In this document: positions 6,408 to 15,061 of the stretch, piece by piece
How positions within the stretch are numbered: the first letter of the stretch is position 1
Layout of the letters: each line of letters opens with the position of its first letter
Assembly (NCBI GenBank): GCA_947449835.1
Contig: CANFSZ010000019.1
Coordinates: 1-46,580 of the forward strand
Reading direction: 5' to 3'
DNA: 46,580 nucleotides
From: Opitutia bacterium
GTDB lineage: Bacteria > Verrucomicrobiota > Verrucomicrobiia > Opitutales > Opitutaceae
Program-made: the position numbers and the translations under genes
Notes under the pieces: generated by a model
Told to the model about the DNA's origin: nothing
Seen by the model: only the letters and a program-made list of their open reading frames with translations
The model's database searches: none

Positions 6408-6469
6408 AAGAATGGAGGGTTTTATTGCTTTCGCAGGCGGGATGGCTAGCGATTTCCTCTTACACCAGC

Positions 6470-7708
6470 ATGAAGCCCGCGCGTATCGTCATTACCGGAG
6501 TCGGTCTCACCGCCCCCAACGGCAATTCTCTCACCGAATTCCGGCAAAATCTGCTGCACGGCATCGCCGGCATCGAGCGCATGGAAATCCGCTACATGGG
6601 CACCCAGCTCGCGGGCGTTTGTCATTACGATCCGTTGAAGTACCAGAAGAAAAAAGAGCTCCGCGTAGGAACGCGGGCGGGCTCCATCTCGATTTACTGC
6701 GCGCGGGAGGCGTTGGCCGACAGTGGGGTTAATTTCGAAACGCTGCCCAAAGATCGCGTCGGCATTTACATCGGTTGCACCGAACACGGTAACGTAGAGA
6801 CCGAAAACGAAATCTACAACATCTCGAAATTTAACTACGACACGAAGTTCTGGTCGCACTATCATAATCCTCGCACCGTCGCCAATAACCCCGCCGGCGA
6901 AACCTCGCTCAATCTCGGCATCACGGGTCCGGCTTACACGATCGGCGCCGCCTGCGCCGCGGGCAACATGGGCCTGATTCACGCCGCGCAGATGTTGCGG
7001 CTCGGTGAAGTCGATTTTGCCCTCTGCGGCGGGATTAGCGAAAGCATTCACACCTTTGGCATTTTCGCGGGTTTCAAATCGCAGAACGCTCTCGCCCAAC
7101 ACGAGGACCCGCACAAAGCCTCGCGCCCCTTCGACAAAGCGCGCAACGGCATCGTCATTTCTGAGGGCGGCTGTTTGTACACGCTCGAACGCCTCGATGA
7201 CGCTCAAGCGCGCGGCGCCAAAATCTACGCCGAGATCGCCGGGTACCACGTCAACTCCGACGCCTCCGACTACGTGCTACCTAACCCCACGCGTCAGGCG
7301 GAGTGCATCCGCGCCGCCATCACGCGCGCCGGACTCAACCCACGCGATATCCACATCGTGAATACGCACGCGACGGCCACGCCCTTGGGCGATATTCAGG
7401 AATGCGAAGCGATCCGCGCGGTGTTTGGCGAGGGCTGCCCCGACACTTACATCAACAACACCAAGGGATACATCGGGCATTGCATGGGCGCCGCCGGGGC
7501 GCTCGAGCTCGCGGGCAATCTTCCTTCGTTCAACGACCTCACGGTGCATCCTTCGATCAATGTTGATGACCTTGATCCGGCCTGCGCGTTGCCCGGTCTG
7601 GTGCTCAATCAGCCGCGCACGGTTGCGAAAGTGGACACGATTCTCAATAATTCCTTCGGGATGCTCGGCATAAATTCCGCGTTGATTGTTAAACGCTTTG
7701 CCGCCTAA
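6470..7708 (+). CDS. Beta-ketoacyl-ACP synthase (KAS II/FabF-like)
   Basis: A 412-residue thiolase-fold condensing enzyme with the Cys-His-His triad: Cys162 in GAACAAGNMG, His300 in NTHATATPLGD and His337 in GYIGHCMGAAGALE, plus the conserved Lys332. It would extend an ACP-bound acyl chain with malonyl-ACP by decarboxylative condensation. It opens a + strand lipid locus and is followed 19 bp later by its likely ACP. The ATG at 6470 puts the start next to the first strand (RIVITGVGL), as usual for the family. A TTG at 6425 preceded by GGAGGG would add 15 residues and is a real alternative, since it is one of the few Shine-Dalgarno-like sites in the window. It is a second, pathway-dedicated KAS rather than clearly the housekeeping FabF. 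Confidence 0.9.
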   Translation: MKPARIVITGVGLTAPNGNSLTEFRQNLLHGIAGIERMEIRYMGTQLAGVCHYDPLKYQKKKELRVGTRAGSISIYCAREALADSGVNFETLPKDRVGIYIGCTEHGNVETENEIYNISKFNYDTKFWSHYHNPRTVANNPAGETSLNLGITGPAYTIGAACAAGNMGLIHAAQMLRLGEVDFALCGGISESIHTFGIFAGFKSQNALAQHEDPHKASRPFDKARNGIVISEGGCLYTLERLDDAQARGAKIYAEIAGYHVNSDASDYVLPNPTRQAECIRAAITRAGLNPRDIHIVNTHATATPLGDIQECEAIRAVFGEGCPDTYINNTKGYIGHCMGAAGALELAGNLPSFNDLTVHPSINVDDLDPACALPGLVLNQPRTVAKVDTILNNSFGMLGINSALIVKRFAA

Positions 7709-7727
7709 TCCCGAAATCTACCGCACC

Positions 7728-7991
7728 ATGACCAAAGACGAATGCAAACAAGTCGTACTCGACATCATCGCTGATATCGCGCCCGACGAAGACCTTTCGA
7801 ATGTTAAACCTGAAGTCCGCCTCCGCGATCAACTTCAGCTCGATAGCATGGATTTCCTCGATATCGTCATGGAGCTTCGCAAGCGTCACAGCATCGAAGT
7901 GCCCGAGGCCGATTACCAACACCTCGCCTCGCTCGACAGCTGCGCCGAGTACTTGACGCCCAAGTTCATCGCGCTCGCCGCCAAGGGCTGA
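7728..7991 (+). CDS. Acyl carrier protein
   Basis: An 87-residue acidic acyl carrier protein. The phosphopantetheine attachment Ser40 lies in LDSMDFLD, close to the DSLD motif of housekeeping ACP, with a hydrophobic helix II (IVMELRK) after it. It starts 19 bp after the ketosynthase and probably carries the growing chain for the enzymes of this locus. The sequence differs enough from typical AcpP (DSMD, longer C-terminal helix) to suggest a dedicated carrier. A strong terminator hairpin follows it. Confidence 0.9.
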   Translation: MTKDECKQVVLDIIADIAPDEDLSNVKPEVRLRDQLQLDSMDFLDIVMELRKRHSIEVPEADYQHLASLDSCAEYLTPKFIALAAKG

Positions 7992-8013
7992 TCGCCGATC
8001 CCTTTCCCCATTC

Positions 8014-8042
8014 AGGCCGGGAATCCCTTCCCGGCCTTTTCT
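8014..8042 (+). terminator. Intrinsic terminator or attenuator between the ACP and FAD-oxidoreductase genes
   Basis: A perfect 10-bp stem, AGGCCGGGAA at 8014-8023 with TTCCCGGCCT at 8028-8037, has a 4-nt loop and is followed by TTTTCTCT. It ends only about 18 bp before the ATG at 8060, so either the downstream genes have a promoter inside the ACP region or they depend on read-through. Confidence 0.8.
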
Positions 8043-8059
8043 CTGCCCACCCACCAAGC

Positions 8060-9490
8060 ATGAACACCCGCAACCACTACGATGTCGCGATCATCGGGGC
8101 GGGCATGTCGGGTCTGGCCGCGGGGATCCGTTTGGCTCACTTCGGAAAAAAAGTATGCATCTTCGAGCGCCACAACGCGACCGGCGGACTCAATAGTTTT
8201 TACAGTATCGGCGGGCGCAAATTCGACGTCGGCCTGCACGCCTTGACGAACTTTGTGCGGCCGGGTGTCAAAGGCACGCCGCTCACCAAACTGCTGCGCC
8301 AATTGCGCATCGACCGCGCCGAGTTTGCGCTCTGTGAGCAAAAACAATCCCGCGTCGCTTTCGGACCCAACGGCGAGACCTCGCTGCGTTTCACCAATGA
8401 TTTTGCAGTCTTTGAAAACGAGGTCGCGAGGCAGTTTCCCAAGGAGATCGATGGTTTCCGTGCGCTCGTCGCCGCGATCAAAACCTACGACGACGTCTCG
8501 CTGGAGGTCGCGCCCATCTCCGCTCGCGCCGTCGTGCGCACGTACATCAAAGACGCGTTGCTGGAAGACATGTTGTTTTGCCCGGTGATGTACTATGGCA
8601 GCGCGCAAGAGCACGACATGGAATTTGGGCAGTTCGTGATCATGTTTAAGGCGCTTTTTCTCGAGGGCTTTGCGCGGCCGTTTGACGGGGTGCGGGTGAT
8701 TCTGCGCGTGTTGCTGGAGAAATACCGCCAAGCTGGCGGTGAGCGGCGAATGAAATGCGGCGTGCGAAAGATTTTATCCCGCGAAGGTCGCGCGACCGCA
8801 TTAGTACTCGATTCCGGCGAAGAAATTACGGCCACGCACGTCATTTCATCCATCGGCGCACCGGAGACGGAACGCTTGATCGGGGTCGCCACCGATGCGG
8901 CGCCTCTCGAGGCCGGTCGGCTTTCGTTTGTGGAAACGATTTCGATTTTAAAGTGCCAGCCCGCGGCGCTCGGGTGGGGGAGTGACACGATTGTTTTTTT
9001 TAATGACTCCACGCGCTTCGATTATGCGTGCCCGGGGGAGGCGTTGGATGTGCGCAGTGGCGTCATTTGTATACCCAATAATTTTGATTTCGGCCCCGAT
9101 CGCCAACTCTCCGACGGAATTTTCCGGGTTACTTGTCTGGCGCGCTACGATCAATGGGCGCCGTTGGCCGAGGAAAGTTATCAAGCGCAGAAAATCCGTT
9201 GTTTCGATAACGTGCAGCGCAGCGCGCGTCGGTTCTTGCCGACCGTGAGTGACGCTGCGCTGTCGGAAGCTACGATCACGACGGACATGTTTACGCCGCG
9301 CACGATCACCAAATTCACGGGACACATCGGCGGGGCGATCTACGGCGCGCCGGTCAAACACCGCCAGGGTCGCACGCCATTGGAAAACGTTTATCTGTGT
9401 GGCACCGACCAAGGTTTTCTAGGAATTATCGGCGCGATGTTGAGCGGCATCTCGATGGCGAACTTTCACATCTTGCAAAAAAAATCATAA
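8060..9490 (+). CDS. CrtI/phytoene-desaturase-like FAD-dependent oxidoreductase (first of two)
   Basis: A 476-residue flavoprotein of the amine-oxidase/CrtI superfamily, which includes phytoene desaturases, carotenoid isomerases and retinol saturases. The Rossmann dinucleotide motif GAGMSG is at 13-18, followed by the acidic strand end FERH (35-38) and GGLNS. The C-terminal FAD-contact region YLCGTDQGFLGIIGAMLSG is typical. There is no signal peptide. Because it sits between an ACP and fatty-acid-type enzymes, an ACP-linked or free acyl/polyene substrate is more likely than a carotenoid; no crtB or other carotenoid gene is present. Desaturase, saturase and isomerase activities cannot be told apart by sequence alone. 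Confidence 0.85.
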   Translation: MNTRNHYDVAIIGAGMSGLAAGIRLAHFGKKVCIFERHNATGGLNSFYSIGGRKFDVGLHALTNFVRPGVKGTPLTKLLRQLRIDRAEFALCEQKQSRVAFGPNGETSLRFTNDFAVFENEVARQFPKEIDGFRALVAAIKTYDDVSLEVAPISARAVVRTYIKDALLEDMLFCPVMYYGSAQEHDMEFGQFVIMFKALFLEGFARPFDGVRVILRVLLEKYRQAGGERRMKCGVRKILSREGRATALVLDSGEEITATHVISSIGAPETERLIGVATDAAPLEAGRLSFVETISILKCQPAALGWGSDTIVFFNDSTRFDYACPGEALDVRSGVICIPNNFDFGPDRQLSDGIFRVTCLARYDQWAPLAEESYQAQKIRCFDNVQRSARRFLPTVSDAALSEATITTDMFTPRTITKFTGHIGGAIYGAPVKHRQGRTPLENVYLCGTDQGFLGIIGAMLSGISMANFHILQKKS

Positions 9491-9520
9491 CTGTATTCGG
9501 TGGGTATACCTCAATACCTC

Positions 9521-10378
9521 ATGAAGAACACCTATAGACTAATTTTAGTTTCGGCGCTTCTCGTAAGTCGCTTGTTGGCTTCGGATTTCCAAGATCGGCT
9601 GGGTCTTCAACTCTACAGTCTGCGCTCTCAAGCAAAAGAAAGCACCACGGGTGCGCTCGATCTCGCGCAATCTTACGGCGTAAAAGAAGTGGAAGTAGCG
9701 GGCACTGGTTCCTTGAAACCCGACGAATTCGTCGCCGAGTTAAAAAAGCGCGGCCTCATTCCGATCAGCGGACATTTTGGCTACGGACTTTTTGAAAAAG
9801 ACATCAACGCCGTCATCGCTGACGCTAAGGCCCTAGGGCTTAAGTACGTGGTCGTGCCGTATCCGCCCGTGAGCAAGACCAAGCCGTTTAGTGAGGAAAT
9901 GACCCACGCCATGGCCGCCAAATTTAACGAATGGGGCGCCGCCTGCAAAAAAGCCGGTTTGATGTTCGGCTACCATCCGCACGGCCTCGAGTTTCGCGCT
10001 ACGGCGGCTGGTAATGGTGAAACGATGTTCGACGTACTGGTTCGCGAGACTCAGCCGGACCTCGTCACCTTCCAGATGGACGTGTACTGGGTTTTCATCA
10101 CTGGAATCGATCCAGCGGCGCTTTTGGCCAAATATCCCAATCGCTTTTCGATGCTCCACATCAAGGACATGTTAAAGGATTTCCAACGCGGCACCCACAG
10201 CGGCGGCAGTCCCGCTACGGCCAAAGTTGCTGTCGGCGACGGACAAATCAATTGGAAGGAAGTACTCGGAGCCGCCCAAAAAATCGGCGTGAAACACTAT
10301 TTCCTCGAGGACGAGACGATGTTTCCGCTCCGCTCGATTCCTGAATCGTTCAAATATCTGCGCGGTCTCAAACTCTGA
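9521..10378 (+). CDS. Secreted sugar phosphate isomerase/epimerase-like TIM-barrel protein
   Basis: A 285-residue xylose-isomerase-like TIM barrel (AP endonuclease 2 fold) with a signal peptide (about 1-22, ending RLLAS). Likely metal and substrate residues are in [35 protein letters not shown] and the final FLEDE. Exported members of this family are frequent in Opitutaceae and Planctomycetes and act on sugars or keto-sugars; the substrate here is unknown. It is unexpected between two cytosolic CrtI-like flavoproteins, 30 bp after one and 40 bp before the other. ATG 9521 is chosen over an upstream GTG at 9500 because it starts the signal peptide. Confidence 0.83.
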
Positions 10379-10418
10379 GTTGCGCTTTGGCCAGACGGCG
10401 GCTCACCTTGGTCGCTCC

Positions 10419-11876
10419 ATGGCTTACGATTGGCTCAAAGGTGTCGCCGACGAGTACGATGTGATTGTGATCGGCAGCGGTTTAGGAGGCCTCACGGGTG
10501 CGAATGCACTCGCTAAGGCCGGCCACCGCGTGCTCTTGGTCGAGCATCATTATCAATTTGGCGGACTCGCCACCTGGTTCACACGAAAAGGCGGTCACAT
10601 TTTCGACATCTCGCTACACGGATTCCCTAGCGGCATGATCAAGTCCTGTCGCCGCTACTGGACGAAGGAAATTTCCGACGCTATCGTTCAATTAAAAGAC
10701 ATCCGTTTTGTGAATCCCCAGATGGATGTCTGGACGACGTTCACCCGCGAAGATTACACGCGCGTACTCGTCGACCAATTTAAACTGCAGCGCACTGAGG
10801 TTGAGGCGTTCTACGACTACCTGCGGGCGATGAATTATTACGACAACAACCCCGAGACGACGGGGCAGATGTTGAATCGCTTCTTTCCGGGCCGCCCCGA
10901 TGTGCACCGCTTGCTGATGGAGCCGATCTCGTACGCCAATGGCTCCAATTTCGATGACCCCGCGATCACCTTCGGGATTGTGTTCTCCAACTTTATGGGC
11001 GCGGGCGTTTACACGTTTCGCGGCGGTTCCGATGATCTGATCGAAAAAATGGTCGCCGAGCTCAAGAAAAACGGCGTCGAGCTGCGCAAAAAAGTCCTCG
11101 TCGATAAAATCTTGGTCGAAGAACGCGACGGCCAGAAAGTCGCGTGCGGCATCGTCGCCGGCAACGGCCGCGTCATTCGCGCCAAAGCGATCCTGTCCAA
11201 CGCCAACATCAAAAACACGATCTTCCGACTCGCAGGTGAGCAGAATTTTCCCGCGGATTTCGTGGAGCAAGCGCGCGCCGTCCGCATCAATTCCAGTTCT
11301 TGTCAGGTTTATTTTGGCATCCGCAAAGGCGAAAGCATCCCGCACATCGGCGACCTCGTTTTCACCTCCGCCGCGCCGCAGTATAGCAACGAGGAGCTCA
11401 CGCATTTCCATACCACGAGTCGGACGTTTTCGGTCTATTACCCCGATACGCGCCCCGGCTCCGATCGCTACACCGTCGTGGCTTCGCTCAACGGACTTTA
11501 TCCCGATTGGAAGTCCCTTTCCGAGGACGACTACGAAGCACATAAACTACGCATGATCGAAGAATCACTCGTGGCGCTGGAGAAATTCATTCCGGACGTG
11601 CGCGCTAAGATCGATTGGCAAGAAGCCGCCACACCGCGAACCATCGAACGCTACACCACGCATCTCAATGGCACGTCGTTTGGCACCAAGTTTGAAGGTC
11701 TGCCCGTTTCGATGCATCTCTCCGAAAAACTCCCGGGACTGTTCCACGCCGGAAGCGTAGGCATCATCATGTCCGGTTGGCTCGGTACGATTAACTACGG
11801 CATCATCACGGCTAACAAAGTGGACAAATATCTCTTCGCCCTTAAACAAGCTGCCCCGGCGTCGACTCCGGTCTGA
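10419..11876 (+). CDS. CrtI/phytoene-dehydrogenase-like FAD-dependent oxidoreductase (second of two)
   Basis: A 485-residue flavoprotein related in fold to the one at 8060. The FAD-binding motif GSGLGG is at 19-24, followed by [12 protein letters not shown]. An internal motif [17 protein letters not shown] matches the CrtI/carotenoid-isomerase group, where the GGxxxLxxxL element precedes the substrate domain. The C-terminus ([21 protein letters not shown]) is the FAD-proximal segment. No signal peptide or membrane segment is clear. It is followed after 5 bp by fabZ, so it is firmly in the fatty-acid part of the locus. The two flavoproteins probably perform successive or opposing redox steps on one acyl substrate; this is inference. 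Confidence 0.85.
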
Positions 11877-11881
11877 TTCCT

Positions 11882-12325
11882 ATGAGCCAAGTCACTGATC
11901 TCATTCCGCATCGTCCGCCCTTTCTCTTTGTTGACGAAATCGTCTCGGAAACCGCCGATGGCCTAATAGCAAAACGTACGCTGCGCGCTGACGAAGAATT
12001 TTACAAAGGTCATTATCCCGGCGCGCCGATAACGCCGGGCGTGTTGCTCTGCGAGGCGGTGTTTCAGACGGGCGCCTTGTATCTAGCTCGCCAAGCCGCA
12101 GGGCAGGGGACACCCGCCGGCGTGCCGCTCATGGCCAAAATCAGCGATGTGCGTTTTCGTAATCCCGTCTACCCCGGCGAAACCATCGTCATCGAAGTGA
12201 AGAAAAAAGAATCGCTCGGTGGTTTCACCATGATGAGCGGCAGCGTGAAAAGTGCCGAGAAGCGCGTGCTAACGGTTGACTTCACGGTTGCTTGGACGAC
12301 TCCCGCTGGTGCGCCCAAAGCATGA
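11882..12325 (+). CDS. fabZ: 3-hydroxyacyl-ACP dehydratase (FabZ family)
   Basis: A 147-residue hot-dog-fold dehydratase. The opening LIPHRPPFLFVDEI and the catalytic His44 in GHYPGAPITPG with Glu58 in LLCEAV match FabZ. It would remove water from 3-hydroxyacyl-ACP to give trans-2-enoyl-ACP. The stop codon overlaps the next gene's ATG (ATGA at 12322-12325), consistent with coupled translation with the enoyl reductase that would use its product. Confidence 0.92.
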   Translation: MSQVTDLIPHRPPFLFVDEIVSETADGLIAKRTLRADEEFYKGHYPGAPITPGVLLCEAVFQTGALYLARQAAGQGTPAGVPLMAKISDVRFRNPVYPGETIVIEVKKKESLGGFTMMSGSVKSAEKRVLTVDFTVAWTTPAGAPKA

Positions 12326-13143
12326 GCGATTTCCTCCAAGTCTCCGGCAAAACCTTTTTGGTCTTCGGCGTCGCCAATCGCAAAAGCGTCGCTTGGTTTA
12401 TCGCTAAGTCGCTCGAAGAGCAGGGCGCCAAGGTCCTTTACAGCGTGCGCTCAGAAATGCGGCGGCAGTCGCTCGCATCGTTGTTGAGCGGCAAATCGGT
12501 CTTCATCTGCGACGTAGAACAAGAAGGTGCGGCGAACCGACTCTCGGGCGAAATCGCCGCCGCCGGCCACAAGGTGCTACACGGAATTGTGCATTCGATC
12601 GCCTTCGCGAATTACAGCGAGGGCTTCAAAGCGTTTCACGAAACCAAACGAGCCGATTTCCTGCAAGCGACCGCGATCTCGGCATTTTCGCTCGTAGAAA
12701 TCGCCAACGCTTTCAAGCCGATGCTCGCGAAGAACGCCTCGGTGGTGACGATCGGGATTTCATCGTTGCTCGTGACGCCGGACAACTACGGCTACATGGG
12801 CCCGATCAAAGCTGCACTCGATTCTTGCACGCGGTTCCTCGCGAAATCCTTCAGCGCAGACAGTGAAGTGCGTTTTAACGTCGTCGGCGCCGGACCACTG
12901 AAAACCAGCGCGTCCGCCGGTATTCCCGGGTATTTAGAAAGCTACCTCTACGCTGAGAAACTGACGTTTCGAAAACGAAATCTTTCCACCGCAGAGATTG
13001 CAGACACTGCGATTTTTTTACTCAGCGAGCGCAGCAGCGGTATCAACGGTGCAACCCTCGTGGTGGACGCCGGACTCGGAAATAATTTCTTCGATAAAGA
13101 AATCATACGACTGGCGATGCGCATGGATTCAACCGCGTCATGA
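12322..13143 (+). CDS. Enoyl-ACP reductase-like SDR (FabI family)
   Basis: A 273-residue short-chain dehydrogenase with the FabI version of the active site, Tyr156-x6-Lys163 in NYGYMGPIK, the FabI cofactor-loop start FGVANRKSVAW and the substrate-loop GAGPLKTSASAGI. Numbering coincides with E. coli FabI at these residues. The other FabI tyrosine (Tyr146 in E. coli) is replaced by Ile, and the Ser after it has no obvious tyrosine partner. It may therefore be a FabI with altered substrate geometry or a related reductase. It overlaps fabZ upstream and the OleA-like gene downstream, each by an ATGA junction. Confidence 0.85.
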   Translation: MSDFLQVSGKTFLVFGVANRKSVAWFIAKSLEEQGAKVLYSVRSEMRRQSLASLLSGKSVFICDVEQEGAANRLSGEIAAAGHKVLHGIVHSIAFANYSEGFKAFHETKRADFLQATAISAFSLVEIANAFKPMLAKNASVVTIGISSLLVTPDNYGYMGPIKAALDSCTRFLAKSFSADSEVRFNVVGAGPLKTSASAGIPGYLESYLYAEKLTFRKRNLSTAEIADTAIFLLSERSSGINGATLVVDAGLGNNFFDKEIIRLAMRMDSTAS

Positions 13144-14171
13144 GATTTTCTAAAGTCCGCATCGAAGCCCTCGCCGTCGCGCTGCCAGAGGAGATTCTTT
13201 CTTCAGCCGCAATCGAGGAACAACTTAGGCCGCTGTACGAGCGCCTCAAATTGCCGTTCGGTCGGCTCGAGTTGATGACAGGGATTCGCGAGCGCCGCGT
13301 CTGGCCCCAGGCCACTCGGCCCTCTGATGCGAGCGCCGCAGCCGGGAAAGCCGTGCTCGCAGCCTCAAAACTAAAGCCAGAGCAGGTAGAACTTTTTATC
13401 CATGCCGCCGTATCGCGTGACATGCTGGAGCCGGCGACAGCTTCGTTTGCGCATCGGAAAATAGGCCTGCCAGCGACGGCTCAGATTTTTGATGTCTCCA
13501 ACGCTTGTCTTGGGTTTTTGAATTCTTTGACCATCGCTGCTTCCATGATTGAGAGCGGACAGATTCGCTGCGCCTTAGTCGTAGCGGGCGAACACGGTCG
13601 CCCGCTGGTCGAACAAACGTTGCGCACGTTGCGCGAAAAAAATCTCACGCGAAATGAGATCAAACCGTTTTTCGCTAATCTCACGATCGGCTCGGGCGCG
13701 GTGGGGGCGTTAATTTGTCATCAGGACCTCGCTCCAAACGGACACAAATTGCTGGGTGGGGTCGCTCGTGCCGCCACGCAACACAGCGATTTGTGTCAGG
13801 GCGATACCCATGGAGCAGAAGCGCTCGCGATGCAGACCGATTCGGAGCAATTACTCGTTGCTGGCGTCGAACTCGCTCGAGCTACGTGGGAAGATTTCAC
13901 CACTACCACCGGTCTAGGTGCTGACACGACGGATCGTTTTATCTGCCACCAAGTCGGCTCGGTGCATCGACGTAAATTGTACGAGACGCTGGGGCTTGAT
14001 GTGAGTAAGGATTTTTCCACATTTGAGACCTTGGGGAACATGGGCTCGGTATCTTTGCCGGCGACGCTCGCGCTGGCCGCCGAACAAGGCGCGTTAAAGG
14101 TAGGGGACCGCGTAGGTTTGCTGGGAATTGGCAGCGGTCTAAATTGTCTGATGCTTGCACTCGAATGGTAA
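13140..14171 (+). CDS. oleA: OleA-like thiolase (FabH-superfamily condensing enzyme)
   Basis: A 343-residue FabH-fold condensing enzyme. The triad is Cys123 in FDVSNACLGF, His269 in FICHQVG and Asn299 in LGNMGS. Beyond generic FabH, the motif SRDMLEPATAS (Glu97) corresponds to the glutamate that OleA supplies as its catalytic base, and the C-terminus GLLGIGSGLNC matches OleA proteins I recall from Xanthomonas. OleA joins two acyl-CoAs head-to-head by non-decarboxylative Claisen condensation to a 2-alkyl-3-keto acid. It is overlapped by FabI upstream and by the alpha/beta-hydrolase downstream, the order seen in oleABCD clusters. oleC and oleD are not in the window. The assignment is from recalled motifs rather than an alignment. 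Confidence 0.78.
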   Translation: MRFSKVRIEALAVALPEEILSSAAIEEQLRPLYERLKLPFGRLELMTGIRERRVWPQATRPSDASAAAGKAVLAASKLKPEQVELFIHAAVSRDMLEPATASFAHRKIGLPATAQIFDVSNACLGFLNSLTIAASMIESGQIRCALVVAGEHGRPLVEQTLRTLREKNLTRNEIKPFFANLTIGSGAVGALICHQDLAPNGHKLLGGVARAATQHSDLCQGDTHGAEALAMQTDSEQLLVAGVELARATWEDFTTTTGLGADTTDRFICHQVGSVHRRKLYETLGLDVSKDFSTFETLGNMGSVSLPATLALAAEQGALKVGDRVGLLGIGSGLNCLMLALEW

Positions 14172-15061
14172 CACCAGCGCCAATTATTCCCGCGTGGATT
14201 AAGAAGCTTTATCCCTTCACTCCGCAAAGTTTCATCACGCCAATGGGAGCGCGGATGAGTTACGTAGACGAAGGCCCACGGGCGGACGAAGCCGTGCTTA
14301 TGCTTCACGGCAATCCCACGTGGTCGTTTTTTTATCGCGACTTGATCCGCGATTTAGCGCCGACCTTGCGCTGCATTGCGCCGGATCATATCGGCATGGG
14401 TTTGTCCGATAAACCTGAGTCGTATGATTACACCTTAGCTCGTCGCATTGCGGATATCGAAGCGTTGATTCATTCACTCGGTCTCAAACGCGTCCATCTC
14501 GTGGTGCATGATTGGGGTGGGGCCATTGGGTTTGGTCTTGCGTCACGTCGGCCGGAATGGATCGGTAAAATTACCATTCTAAATACCGCCGCGTTTGTGT
14601 CCGATAAAATCCCTTGGCGTATTTCTCTCTGTCGGCTGCCTCTGCTTGGACCTCTTTTAGTTCGAGGATTAAATGCATTTGCTGGACCAGCCACTTGGAT
14701 GTCGCTGCATCAACGAAAACTTAGCCCCGACGAGAAGTGCGGATATTTAGCCCCTTACGGCAACTGGTCCGAACGCGTGGCCGTTAATGCATTTGTCCAA
14801 GATATTCCTTTGGAGTCTGACCACCCAAGTCGTGCGATCTTAGAACAGGTTGAAGATAGTTTACCTCAGTTTTCTCGTAACCCAAAATTGATTGTGTGGG
14901 GAGCCCACGATTTTTGTTTTAACGAACATTTTTTAACACGCTGGAAACATATCTTCCCCGAAGCTGATGTTTTTGAAATGAAAGACGCCGGTCATTACGT
15001 CCTTGATGACGGCGGGGAACTAGCGCGCTCCCGAATTGTGGCTTTTATCCAAAAAATTTAG
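14165..15061 (+). CDS. oleB: OleB-like alpha/beta-hydrolase (haloalkane-dehalogenase-like)
   Basis: A 298-residue alpha/beta-hydrolase. The oxyanion motif HGNPTW (48-53), nucleophile Asp116 in VHDWGGAIG and His in DAGHYVLDD place it in the haloalkane dehalogenase-like group that includes OleB, the beta-lactone decarboxylase of olefin biosynthesis. The ATG at 14165 overlaps the end of the OleA-like gene by 7 bp, so the two are probably co-translated. The substrate of OleB is made by OleC, which is absent here, so an ordinary esterase or dehalogenase role remains possible. GC content falls across this gene (one line near 14.9 kb is about 38 percent G+C) compared with the genes upstream. Confidence 0.75.
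   Translation: MVTPAPIIPAWIKKLYPFTPQSFITPMGARMSYVDEGPRADEAVLMLHGNPTWSFFYRDLIRDLAPTLRCIAPDHIGMGLSDKPESYDYTLARRIADIEALIHSLGLKRVHLVVHDWGGAIGFGLASRRPEWIGKITILNTAAFVSDKIPWRISLCRLPLLGPLLVRGLNAFAGPATWMSLHQRKLSPDEKCGYLAPYGNWSERVAVNAFVQDIPLESDHPSRAILEQVEDSLPQFSRNPKLIVWGAHDFCFNEHFLTRWKHIFPEADVFEMKDAGHYVLDDGGELARSRIVAFIQKI

Follow-up and report, generated by a model that had tools for sequence, protein, structure and literature searches.

A conserved fatty acid synthesis and flavoprotein gene set beside oleA and oleB in Opitutales: a candidate supplier of polyunsaturated acyl chains

Gene content of the Opitutaceae locus

We analysed a run of nine genes in a 46,580-nucleotide stretch of an Opitutia bacterium genome (family Opitutaceae, order Opitutales; assembly GCA_947449835.1, contig CANFSZ010000019.1, positions 1 to 46,580), here called the window. 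The run, at 6425-15061, brings together fatty acid synthesis (FAS)-type genes, two CrtI-like flavoproteins, PD1 and PD2, and an OleA/OleB pair. An earlier note made from the letters alone had described nine same-strand genes that looked like a pathway dedicated to making and remodelling an acyl chain, with OleA as its recipient. This reading is supported by the conserved gene order and by the flavoproteins forming groups of their own. All nine genes and their open reading frames (ORFs) are present; eight of them, encoding the ketosynthase (KS), acyl carrier protein (ACP), PD1, PD2, FabZ, FabI-like reductase, OleA and OleB, are a real functional set, while the gene at 9500-10378 is a bystander. 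The genes, with flavin adenine dinucleotide abbreviated to FAD, are as follows.

6425..7708, + strand: KS, FabF-superfamily ketosynthase of its own subfamily (PF00109/PF02801); likely ATG start at 6470
7686..7991, + strand: ACP, non-canonical acyl carrier protein (PF00550); likely ATG at 7728
8060..9490, + strand: PD1, CrtI/CrtISO-like FAD flavoprotein (PF01593)
9500..10378, + strand: xylose-isomerase-like TIM barrel protein, bystander (PF01261)
10422..11876, + strand: PD2, second CrtI/CrtISO-like flavoprotein (PF01593); the ORF opens at 10380
11882..12325, + strand: FabZ-like 3-hydroxyacyl-ACP dehydratase (PF07977)
12322..13143, + strand: FabI-like enoyl-ACP reductase (PF13561)
13140..14171, + strand: OleA thiolase, head-to-head condensation (NF006720 over cut-off; motif; tree)
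14165..15061, + strand: OleB-like beta-lactone decarboxylase (alpha/beta hydrolase, haloalkane dehalogenase type)

The ATGA junctions and the oleB overlap that had been reported are borne out by the coordinates. The fabZ/fabI and fabI/oleA junctions are 4-base overlaps of ATGA type (fabI ATG at 12322, fabZ end at 12325; 13140/13143), and oleA and oleB overlap by 7 bases (oleB ATG at 14165, oleA end at 14171).

Family calls for the nine ORFs were made with Pfam and NCBIfam models and agree with the identities first proposed. OleA is the sole protein to pass a curated cut-off among the NCBIfam matches listed (NF006720, 454.8 bits against 285). Its best PDB matches are 3row and its kin, annotated as 3-oxoacyl-[ACP] synthase III, which we take to be X. 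campestris OleA. It also holds the motif EPxx[AS]x(14,18)DxxNACL, as given in excerpts of PMC7158056. The NCBIfam scores of the KS (312 bits on TIGR03150, cut-off 493.75), the ACP (37 bits on the best AcpP model, cut-off 71), FabZ (99 bits against a housekeeping-model cut-off of 113) and FabI (174 against 370) would suit divergent paralogs of housekeeping enzymes. The positions that we take to be catalytic are conserved among relatives, counted over alignable segments without a stop and with the window included: Cys, His, His and Lys of the KS in 80/80 aligned rows, Ser of the ACP in 80/80, His and Glu of FabZ in 57/59 and 59/59, Tyr and Lys of FabI in 56/56, Cys and Glu of OleA in 54/54, and Asp and His of OleB in 43/43.

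Distribution and gene order

Among the class genomes sampled the flavoproteins are confined to the window's order. In a sample of 384 genomes, 74 from the order and 310 from the rest of the class, PD1 was found in 71/74 order members (E 1e-20; three of the 71 are the divergent PD3, at 32-33% identity) and PD2 in 70/74 (E 1e-30), and both in 0/310 of the others. At 19 of 36 family loci all genes from KS to OleB share a strand and follow the gene order of the window, with gaps of at most 2.3 kb between matches. The remaining loci are truncated where the contig or region stops, carry PD2 to OleB at another site (for instance L143-L146 and L157), or have PD1 alone (L101, L103). Loci titled Opitutus and Lacunisphaera share the arrangement (L183, L192, L196, L201); the published Lacunisphaera description contains no mention of hydrocarbon, polyunsaturated, C31 or unsaturated fatty. 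A locus from another family (L175) has the window's gene order, with galE before it and lepB and lepA after one intervening ORF, and the arrangement may therefore be ancestral. In several families of the order KS-ACP-PD1 lies apart from PD2-FabZ-FabI-OleA-OleB, or the set is split further.

The genes also tend to be lost together. Among 103 order genomes, in which the OleA-negative G447 was placed by elimination, PD1 is absent from 20, PD2 from 20 and OleA from 21. All three are missing in 15, where about 0.8 would be expected if losses were independent, and the three gene pairs give Fisher p values of 4e-10, 4e-11 and 1e-9, uncorrected for kinship. The genomes lacking all three include the single-contig G385 and G434; 15 further genomes lack one or two, most of them in many contigs or below 1.4 Mb. 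Several genomes of just 0.8-1.4 Mb (e.g. G145, G193, G398, G410 and G445) keep PD1, PD2 and OleA, and retention in such reduced cells suggests an important function.

The cluster extends well beyond the order. An alignment scan of named genomes with PD1 and PD3 gave at least 57 loci. Among the matches listed, PD1 is at least 40% identical over at least 350 residues in 24, of which 17 lie outside Verrucomicrobiota by title. KS and ACP stand upstream of PD1 in 15 of these 17; L189 begins inside the cluster and L188 is without KS and ACP. Within the fetched stretches, again among the matches listed, PD2 then follows in 11, FabZ in 9 and FabI in 7. KS-ACP-PD1, often with PD2-FabZ-FabI, thus occurs in Planctomycetota, Nitrospinota and deltaproteobacterial genomes. 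Identities to the window in these loci are 63-71% for KS, 54-70% for ACP, 42-53% for PD1, 53-59% for PD2, 33-46% for FabZ and 51-60% for FabI. Orthologs of the KS are 60-100% identical to that of the window, and no further KS match at the loci read exceeds 38%. Gene order, whose conservation the earlier note had put forward as a check, is hence kept far beyond the strain, in the family, the order and other phyla. Among the titles and starts of abstracts listed by literature searches, with subscription papers mostly outside their reach, there was no earlier description of the cluster.

Two deltaproteobacterial loci (L185, L186) read KS-ACP-PD1-OleA-OleB-OleC-OleD-PD2-FabG-FabZ-FabI. FabG is also found in clusters of a Nitrospina (L191), a planctomycete (L195) and a member of the Desulfobulbaceae (L197); nine neighbouring ORFs were scanned, of which five are FabG (TIGR01830, 256-300 bits) and four unrelated. 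The absence of a ketoreductase, as first described, holds for the window locus, while five clusters of other phyla carry one. The Desulfobulbaceae metagenome-assembled genome (G460) has KS-ACP-PD1-PD2-FabG-FabZ, with no OleA over the cut-off in the genome.

The flavoproteins and the ole genes

PD1 and PD2 share the fold and FAD domain of the CrtI/CrtISO carotenoid enzymes, yet neither passes the cut-off of a carotenoid desaturase or isomerase equivalog. The top NCBIfam model for both is carotenoid isomerase TIGR02730, at 70.8 bits for PD1 and 111.4 for PD2 against a cut-off of 586.9. Structure models (predicted local distance difference test, pLDDT, 90.5 and 86.1) gave the gamma-carotenoid desaturase 4REP as the top Foldseek match in the PDB for both, with template modelling (TM) scores of 0.73 for PD1 and 0.72 for PD2. 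Identity to 4REP and 4DGK is 14-18%; the two proteins are families of their own, and a carotenoid substrate is not implied.

In a tree of 71 flavoprotein rows PD1 (24 rows) forms one group at 100/98 and PD2 (25 rows) another at 100/100, each spanning several phyla. Clustering with unrelated carotenoid enzymes, which would have pointed to a chance grouping, was not seen: PD1 and PD2 stand in well-supported groups of their own and far under the equivalog cut-offs, in a tree whose further rows were ten CrtI-like and eight anammox-class proteins, none of them a characterised carotenoid enzyme. The eight anammox-class rows stand apart from PD1 and PD2. Long branches leave the relation of PD1 to PD2 unsure. 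In one genus (G122, G169, G213) the gene behind KS-ACP is not PD1 but PD3, a relative 30-33% identical to it; G422 has PD3 without KS-ACP, plus a normal PD1. The PD3 genes are at the following positions.

L067 6256-7641: PD3
L068 6369-7745: PD3
L069 6913-8289: PD3
L176 3474-4871: PD3

The window's genome holds an OleABCD set in two places: OleA and the OleB-like gene in the window, and OleC (NF006754, 619.7 bits against a cut-off of 478) on another contig with an adjoining OleD-like gene (NF042422, 360 bits, below the cut-off of 580). The locus thus shares OleA and OleB with the OleABCD pathway, and differs in that the set is split and that oleA and oleB are linked by overlaps behind PD2 and fabZ-fabI.

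Outside Verrucomicrobiota OleA passes its cut-off in 14 of the 16 PD-bearing genomes searched (of 18), in 0/14 control genomes and in neither of two anammox-type genomes. A planctomycete class, represented by 198 genomes, has PD2 in 82 and OleA in 169. OleA is present in 82/82 PD2-positive and 87/116 PD2-negative genomes (Fisher p 4e-8, uncorrected for kinship), so that all 29 OleA-negative genomes also lack PD2. At least 15 of these PD2 carriers have the two genes no more than 12 kb apart. We read ten PD2-positive loci, seven of them picked for nearness to OleA; OleA is in the same stretch in those seven and not in the other three. An OleA tree of 49 rows separates ten PD2-negative planctomycete rows by a branch 1.12 long (100/100), and every PD-linked OleA of Opitutales, planctomycetes, deltaproteobacteria and Nitrospina falls on the opposite side.

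What precedes oleA in PD2-negative planctomycetes is a different kind of gene. In nine of ten such loci, chosen among those with the higher OleA scores, oleA directly follows an ORF of 2156-2378 amino acids with internal KS matches, and in seven of these nine oleBCD lies behind it; L264 is the exception. In three giant ORFs NCBIfam found a PfaA-like KS (319-547 bits, under the cut-off of 1010) and a FabA-type dehydratase/isomerase over its cut-off, and two given to Pfam have three FabA-like stretches each. In the window's order PfaA passed the TIGR02813 cut-off in 0/103 genomes. A search at E<=1e-100 gave matches in two of them, G015 and G127, and none in the window's genome, although weaker Pfa-like proteins could escape this threshold, the planctomycete ones scoring 319-547 bits. 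Both of these order members have, in addition to the PD genes, a large PfaA-like polyketide synthase (PKS) frame under the cut-off: L177 (G127, 607 bits) and L178 (G015, 342 bits).

Proposed function and its alternatives

The PD clusters across phyla, together with the Pfa-like PKS found before oleA in PD2-negative planctomycetes, suggest that the locus supplies a polyunsaturated acyl chain to the Ole pathway by a type II route independent of Pfa, a reading to which we give a probability of about 0.68. Pfa-like type I clusters are known (Shulse and Allen 2011, excerpts of PMC3098273). In Shewanella and Photobacterium, OleA is reported to take a 16:4 chain from the ACP of the Pfa synthase in vivo (excerpts of PMC6463001). 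There, as in the window, a dedicated set of KS, ACP, dehydratase and reductase functions is linked to ole, and the acyl-ACP would be passed to OleA in the same manner. The window set differs in having separate type II proteins and no giant multidomain protein, FabZ and not FabA-like domains, and two CrtI-like flavoproteins.

In the proposed pathway the KS, ACP, FabZ and FabI would extend the chain, with a ketoreductase supplied from elsewhere in the window's genome or, in other phyla, by the in-cluster FabG. PD1 and PD2 would place or keep the double bonds. Two-carbon build-up of a 4,7,10,13-16:4 chain, in the general Pfa scheme, would require isomerisations of two types as well as several complete reductions. 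Since the Pfa-like proteins have FabA-like domains, and the PD cluster has FabZ plus flavoproteins whose best, weak model is a carotenoid isomerase, we propose, as the simplest chemistry, that PD1 and PD2 do the job of the isomerising FabA-like dehydratase domains of Pfa synthases. They would catalyse trans-2 to cis-3 and trans-2 to cis-2 isomerisation of enoyl-ACP, redox-neutral on FAD in the manner of the carotenoid isomerases. Alternating with reduction by FabI, this could give 4,7,10,13-hexadecatetraenoyl-ACP; OleA would then join two chains, and OleD, OleC (from the other contig) and OleB would finish the product. A C31 polyene is probable, and C31:9 hentriacontanonaene or a near relative would be expected; C31:9 is thought to derive from two 16:4 n-3 chains (excerpts of PMC4882568). 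We infer the substrates, the isomerase role and the product of the locus from these comparisons. The PD proteins would then belong to a second, unrelated kind of bacterial polyunsaturated fatty acid (PUFA) synthase, a type II FAS in which enoyl-ACP isomerisation, both trans-2/cis-3 and trans-2/cis-2, falls to two FAD proteins with the fold of carotenoid desaturases and isomerases. We hold this tentatively, at somewhat less than even odds, and the same odds cover its further features taken jointly with those roles: oxygen independence, occurrence in at least four phyla, and a place beside oleABCD otherwise taken by Pfa.

Several points weigh against the supply of a polyunsaturated chain by a dedicated set. 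The Fisher tests ignore kinship among genomes, and the ten PD2-negative loci came from high OleA scores. The word dedicated rests on family scores below cut-off and on distribution; a stretch of 0.42 Mb, some 14% of the genome, was covered and held no second KS, FabZ or FabI. FabZ relatives themselves isomerise in some bacteria. OleA is missing from G103, an order genome in six contigs that does carry PD1 and PD2, and among the PD genomes searched outside Verrucomicrobiota G459 and G460 have no OleA over the cut-off; the acyl product may therefore serve other purposes too. A review, in its excerpted text, links known makers of C31:9 to Pfa genes (PMC4882568).

The chemistry of the flavoproteins is where the readings part, and we see isomerisation and desaturation as about evenly balanced. 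PD1 and PD2 may instead be true desaturases, in the same pathway and with the same class of product, oxidising step by step a chain that is bound to ACP and has one double bond or none. They would work in the way of CrtI or of the PDS/ZDS pair of plants, and a quinone would accept the electrons. By fold, desaturases are among their best solved matches: after 4REP come amine oxidases and other desaturases (4DGK, 5MOG), which counts against an isomerase role, as does the lack of a carotenoid isomerase among the 50 solved folds listed. Such a role has been proposed for the flavoproteins of Kuenenia and D. psychrophila (excerpts of PMC2649909). Yet a desaturase working on ordinary acyl-ACP needs no KS, FabZ and FabI of its own, and the synthase that partners ole where PD is absent carries FabA-like domains; we give this version serious weight, though at less than even odds. 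It is unlikely that OleA receives some other special chain from the set, for example a monounsaturated or conjugated one or one saturated by a RetSat-like reduction, with no methylene-interrupted polyene. Flavoproteins of the superfamily do also saturate, but a Pfa-like synthase occupies the same place beside ole, and polyenes are reported from D. psychrophila and planctomycetes (excerpts of PMC2649909).

The earlier note had also drawn a parallel with ladderane synthesis, and the comparison proved weak. FASII (type II FAS) clusters of Kuenenia stuttgartiensis and D. psychrophila, proposed for anaerobic PUFA or ladderane synthesis (Rattray 2009, excerpts of PMC2649909), do resemble the window in setting FAS genes, in Kuenenia and D. 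psychrophila alike, beside phytoene-desaturase-like flavoproteins; in D. psychrophila these are three phytoene-dehydrogenase-like genes, in a genome said in the same excerpts to be without PKS-type PUFA genes and from an organism making C31:8 and C31:9. Unlike these clusters the window has no radical S-adenosylmethionine (SAM) genes, none having been found among its nine ORFs by Pfam and NCBIfam, and it and other window-type clusters include ole genes. In the class to which the Brocadia genome G464 belongs, searched for PD2 and not for PD1, PD2 has an ortholog in 0/75 genomes and 25-29% identical relatives in 55/75. At the anammox-class loci L256-L261, L202 and L203 a FabF-type KS just 28-38% identical to that of the window lies beside a CrtI-like flavoprotein. 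What sets PD2 apart is thus the distance to anammox-class flavoproteins, not a comparison with the D. psychrophila or Kuenenia genes themselves. Given identities of 25-29% and the separate tree group, we do not file the locus as a ladderane cluster, and one common to anammox bacteria is highly improbable. Least credible of all is a chance neighbourhood of unrelated lipid genes: KS-ACP-PD1 does lie apart from PD2-FabZ-FabI-OleA-OleB in several order families, but the same genes occur together across phyla and are lost jointly.

Supply of polyunsaturated chains by this set would bear on how bacteria without Pfa make polyunsaturated hydrocarbons, a question that dates back to the discovery of C31:9 in D. 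psychrophila, and on what CrtI-like enzymes do next to FAS genes. Small separate enzymes would here do what a giant enzyme does in other bacteria. The set is compact and present in nearly the whole order and many planctomycetes, including isolates such as Rhodopirellula and Pelagicoccus, and is therefore directly testable. If PD1 and PD2 are isomerases, they would represent a new oxygen-free enzymatic way to set cis double bonds, useful for PUFA and hydrocarbon production.

Some unassigned neighbouring genes recur at the 103 loci analysed, the commonest being, as judged by eye, a sigma-54 regulator at 19, an M50-type protease at 13 and a 4-alpha-glucanotransferase at 8, the last in several families; no additional lipid gene recurred in this analysis. 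We take these three for a shared neighbourhood and not for parts of the system. The TIM barrel gene was likewise set aside, being no lipid gene and present in few relatives: it occurs in 3/36 other family loci mapped (L071, L086, L096), plus L145 and L196. At L145 it precedes PD2 although PD1 is located elsewhere. A plasmid search with PD2 returned ten records, all distant, at no more than about 30% identity. The PD1 match is split in two by additional residues at L101, L102 and L103 (G069, G198, G246), and at L101 and L103 KS and ACP are not near this broken match. A contig with Polynucleobacter meluiroseus in its title has at its end a fragment sharing 68% identity with PD1 of the window (L205, 9001-9288), and is perhaps a misbinned Opitutales contig.

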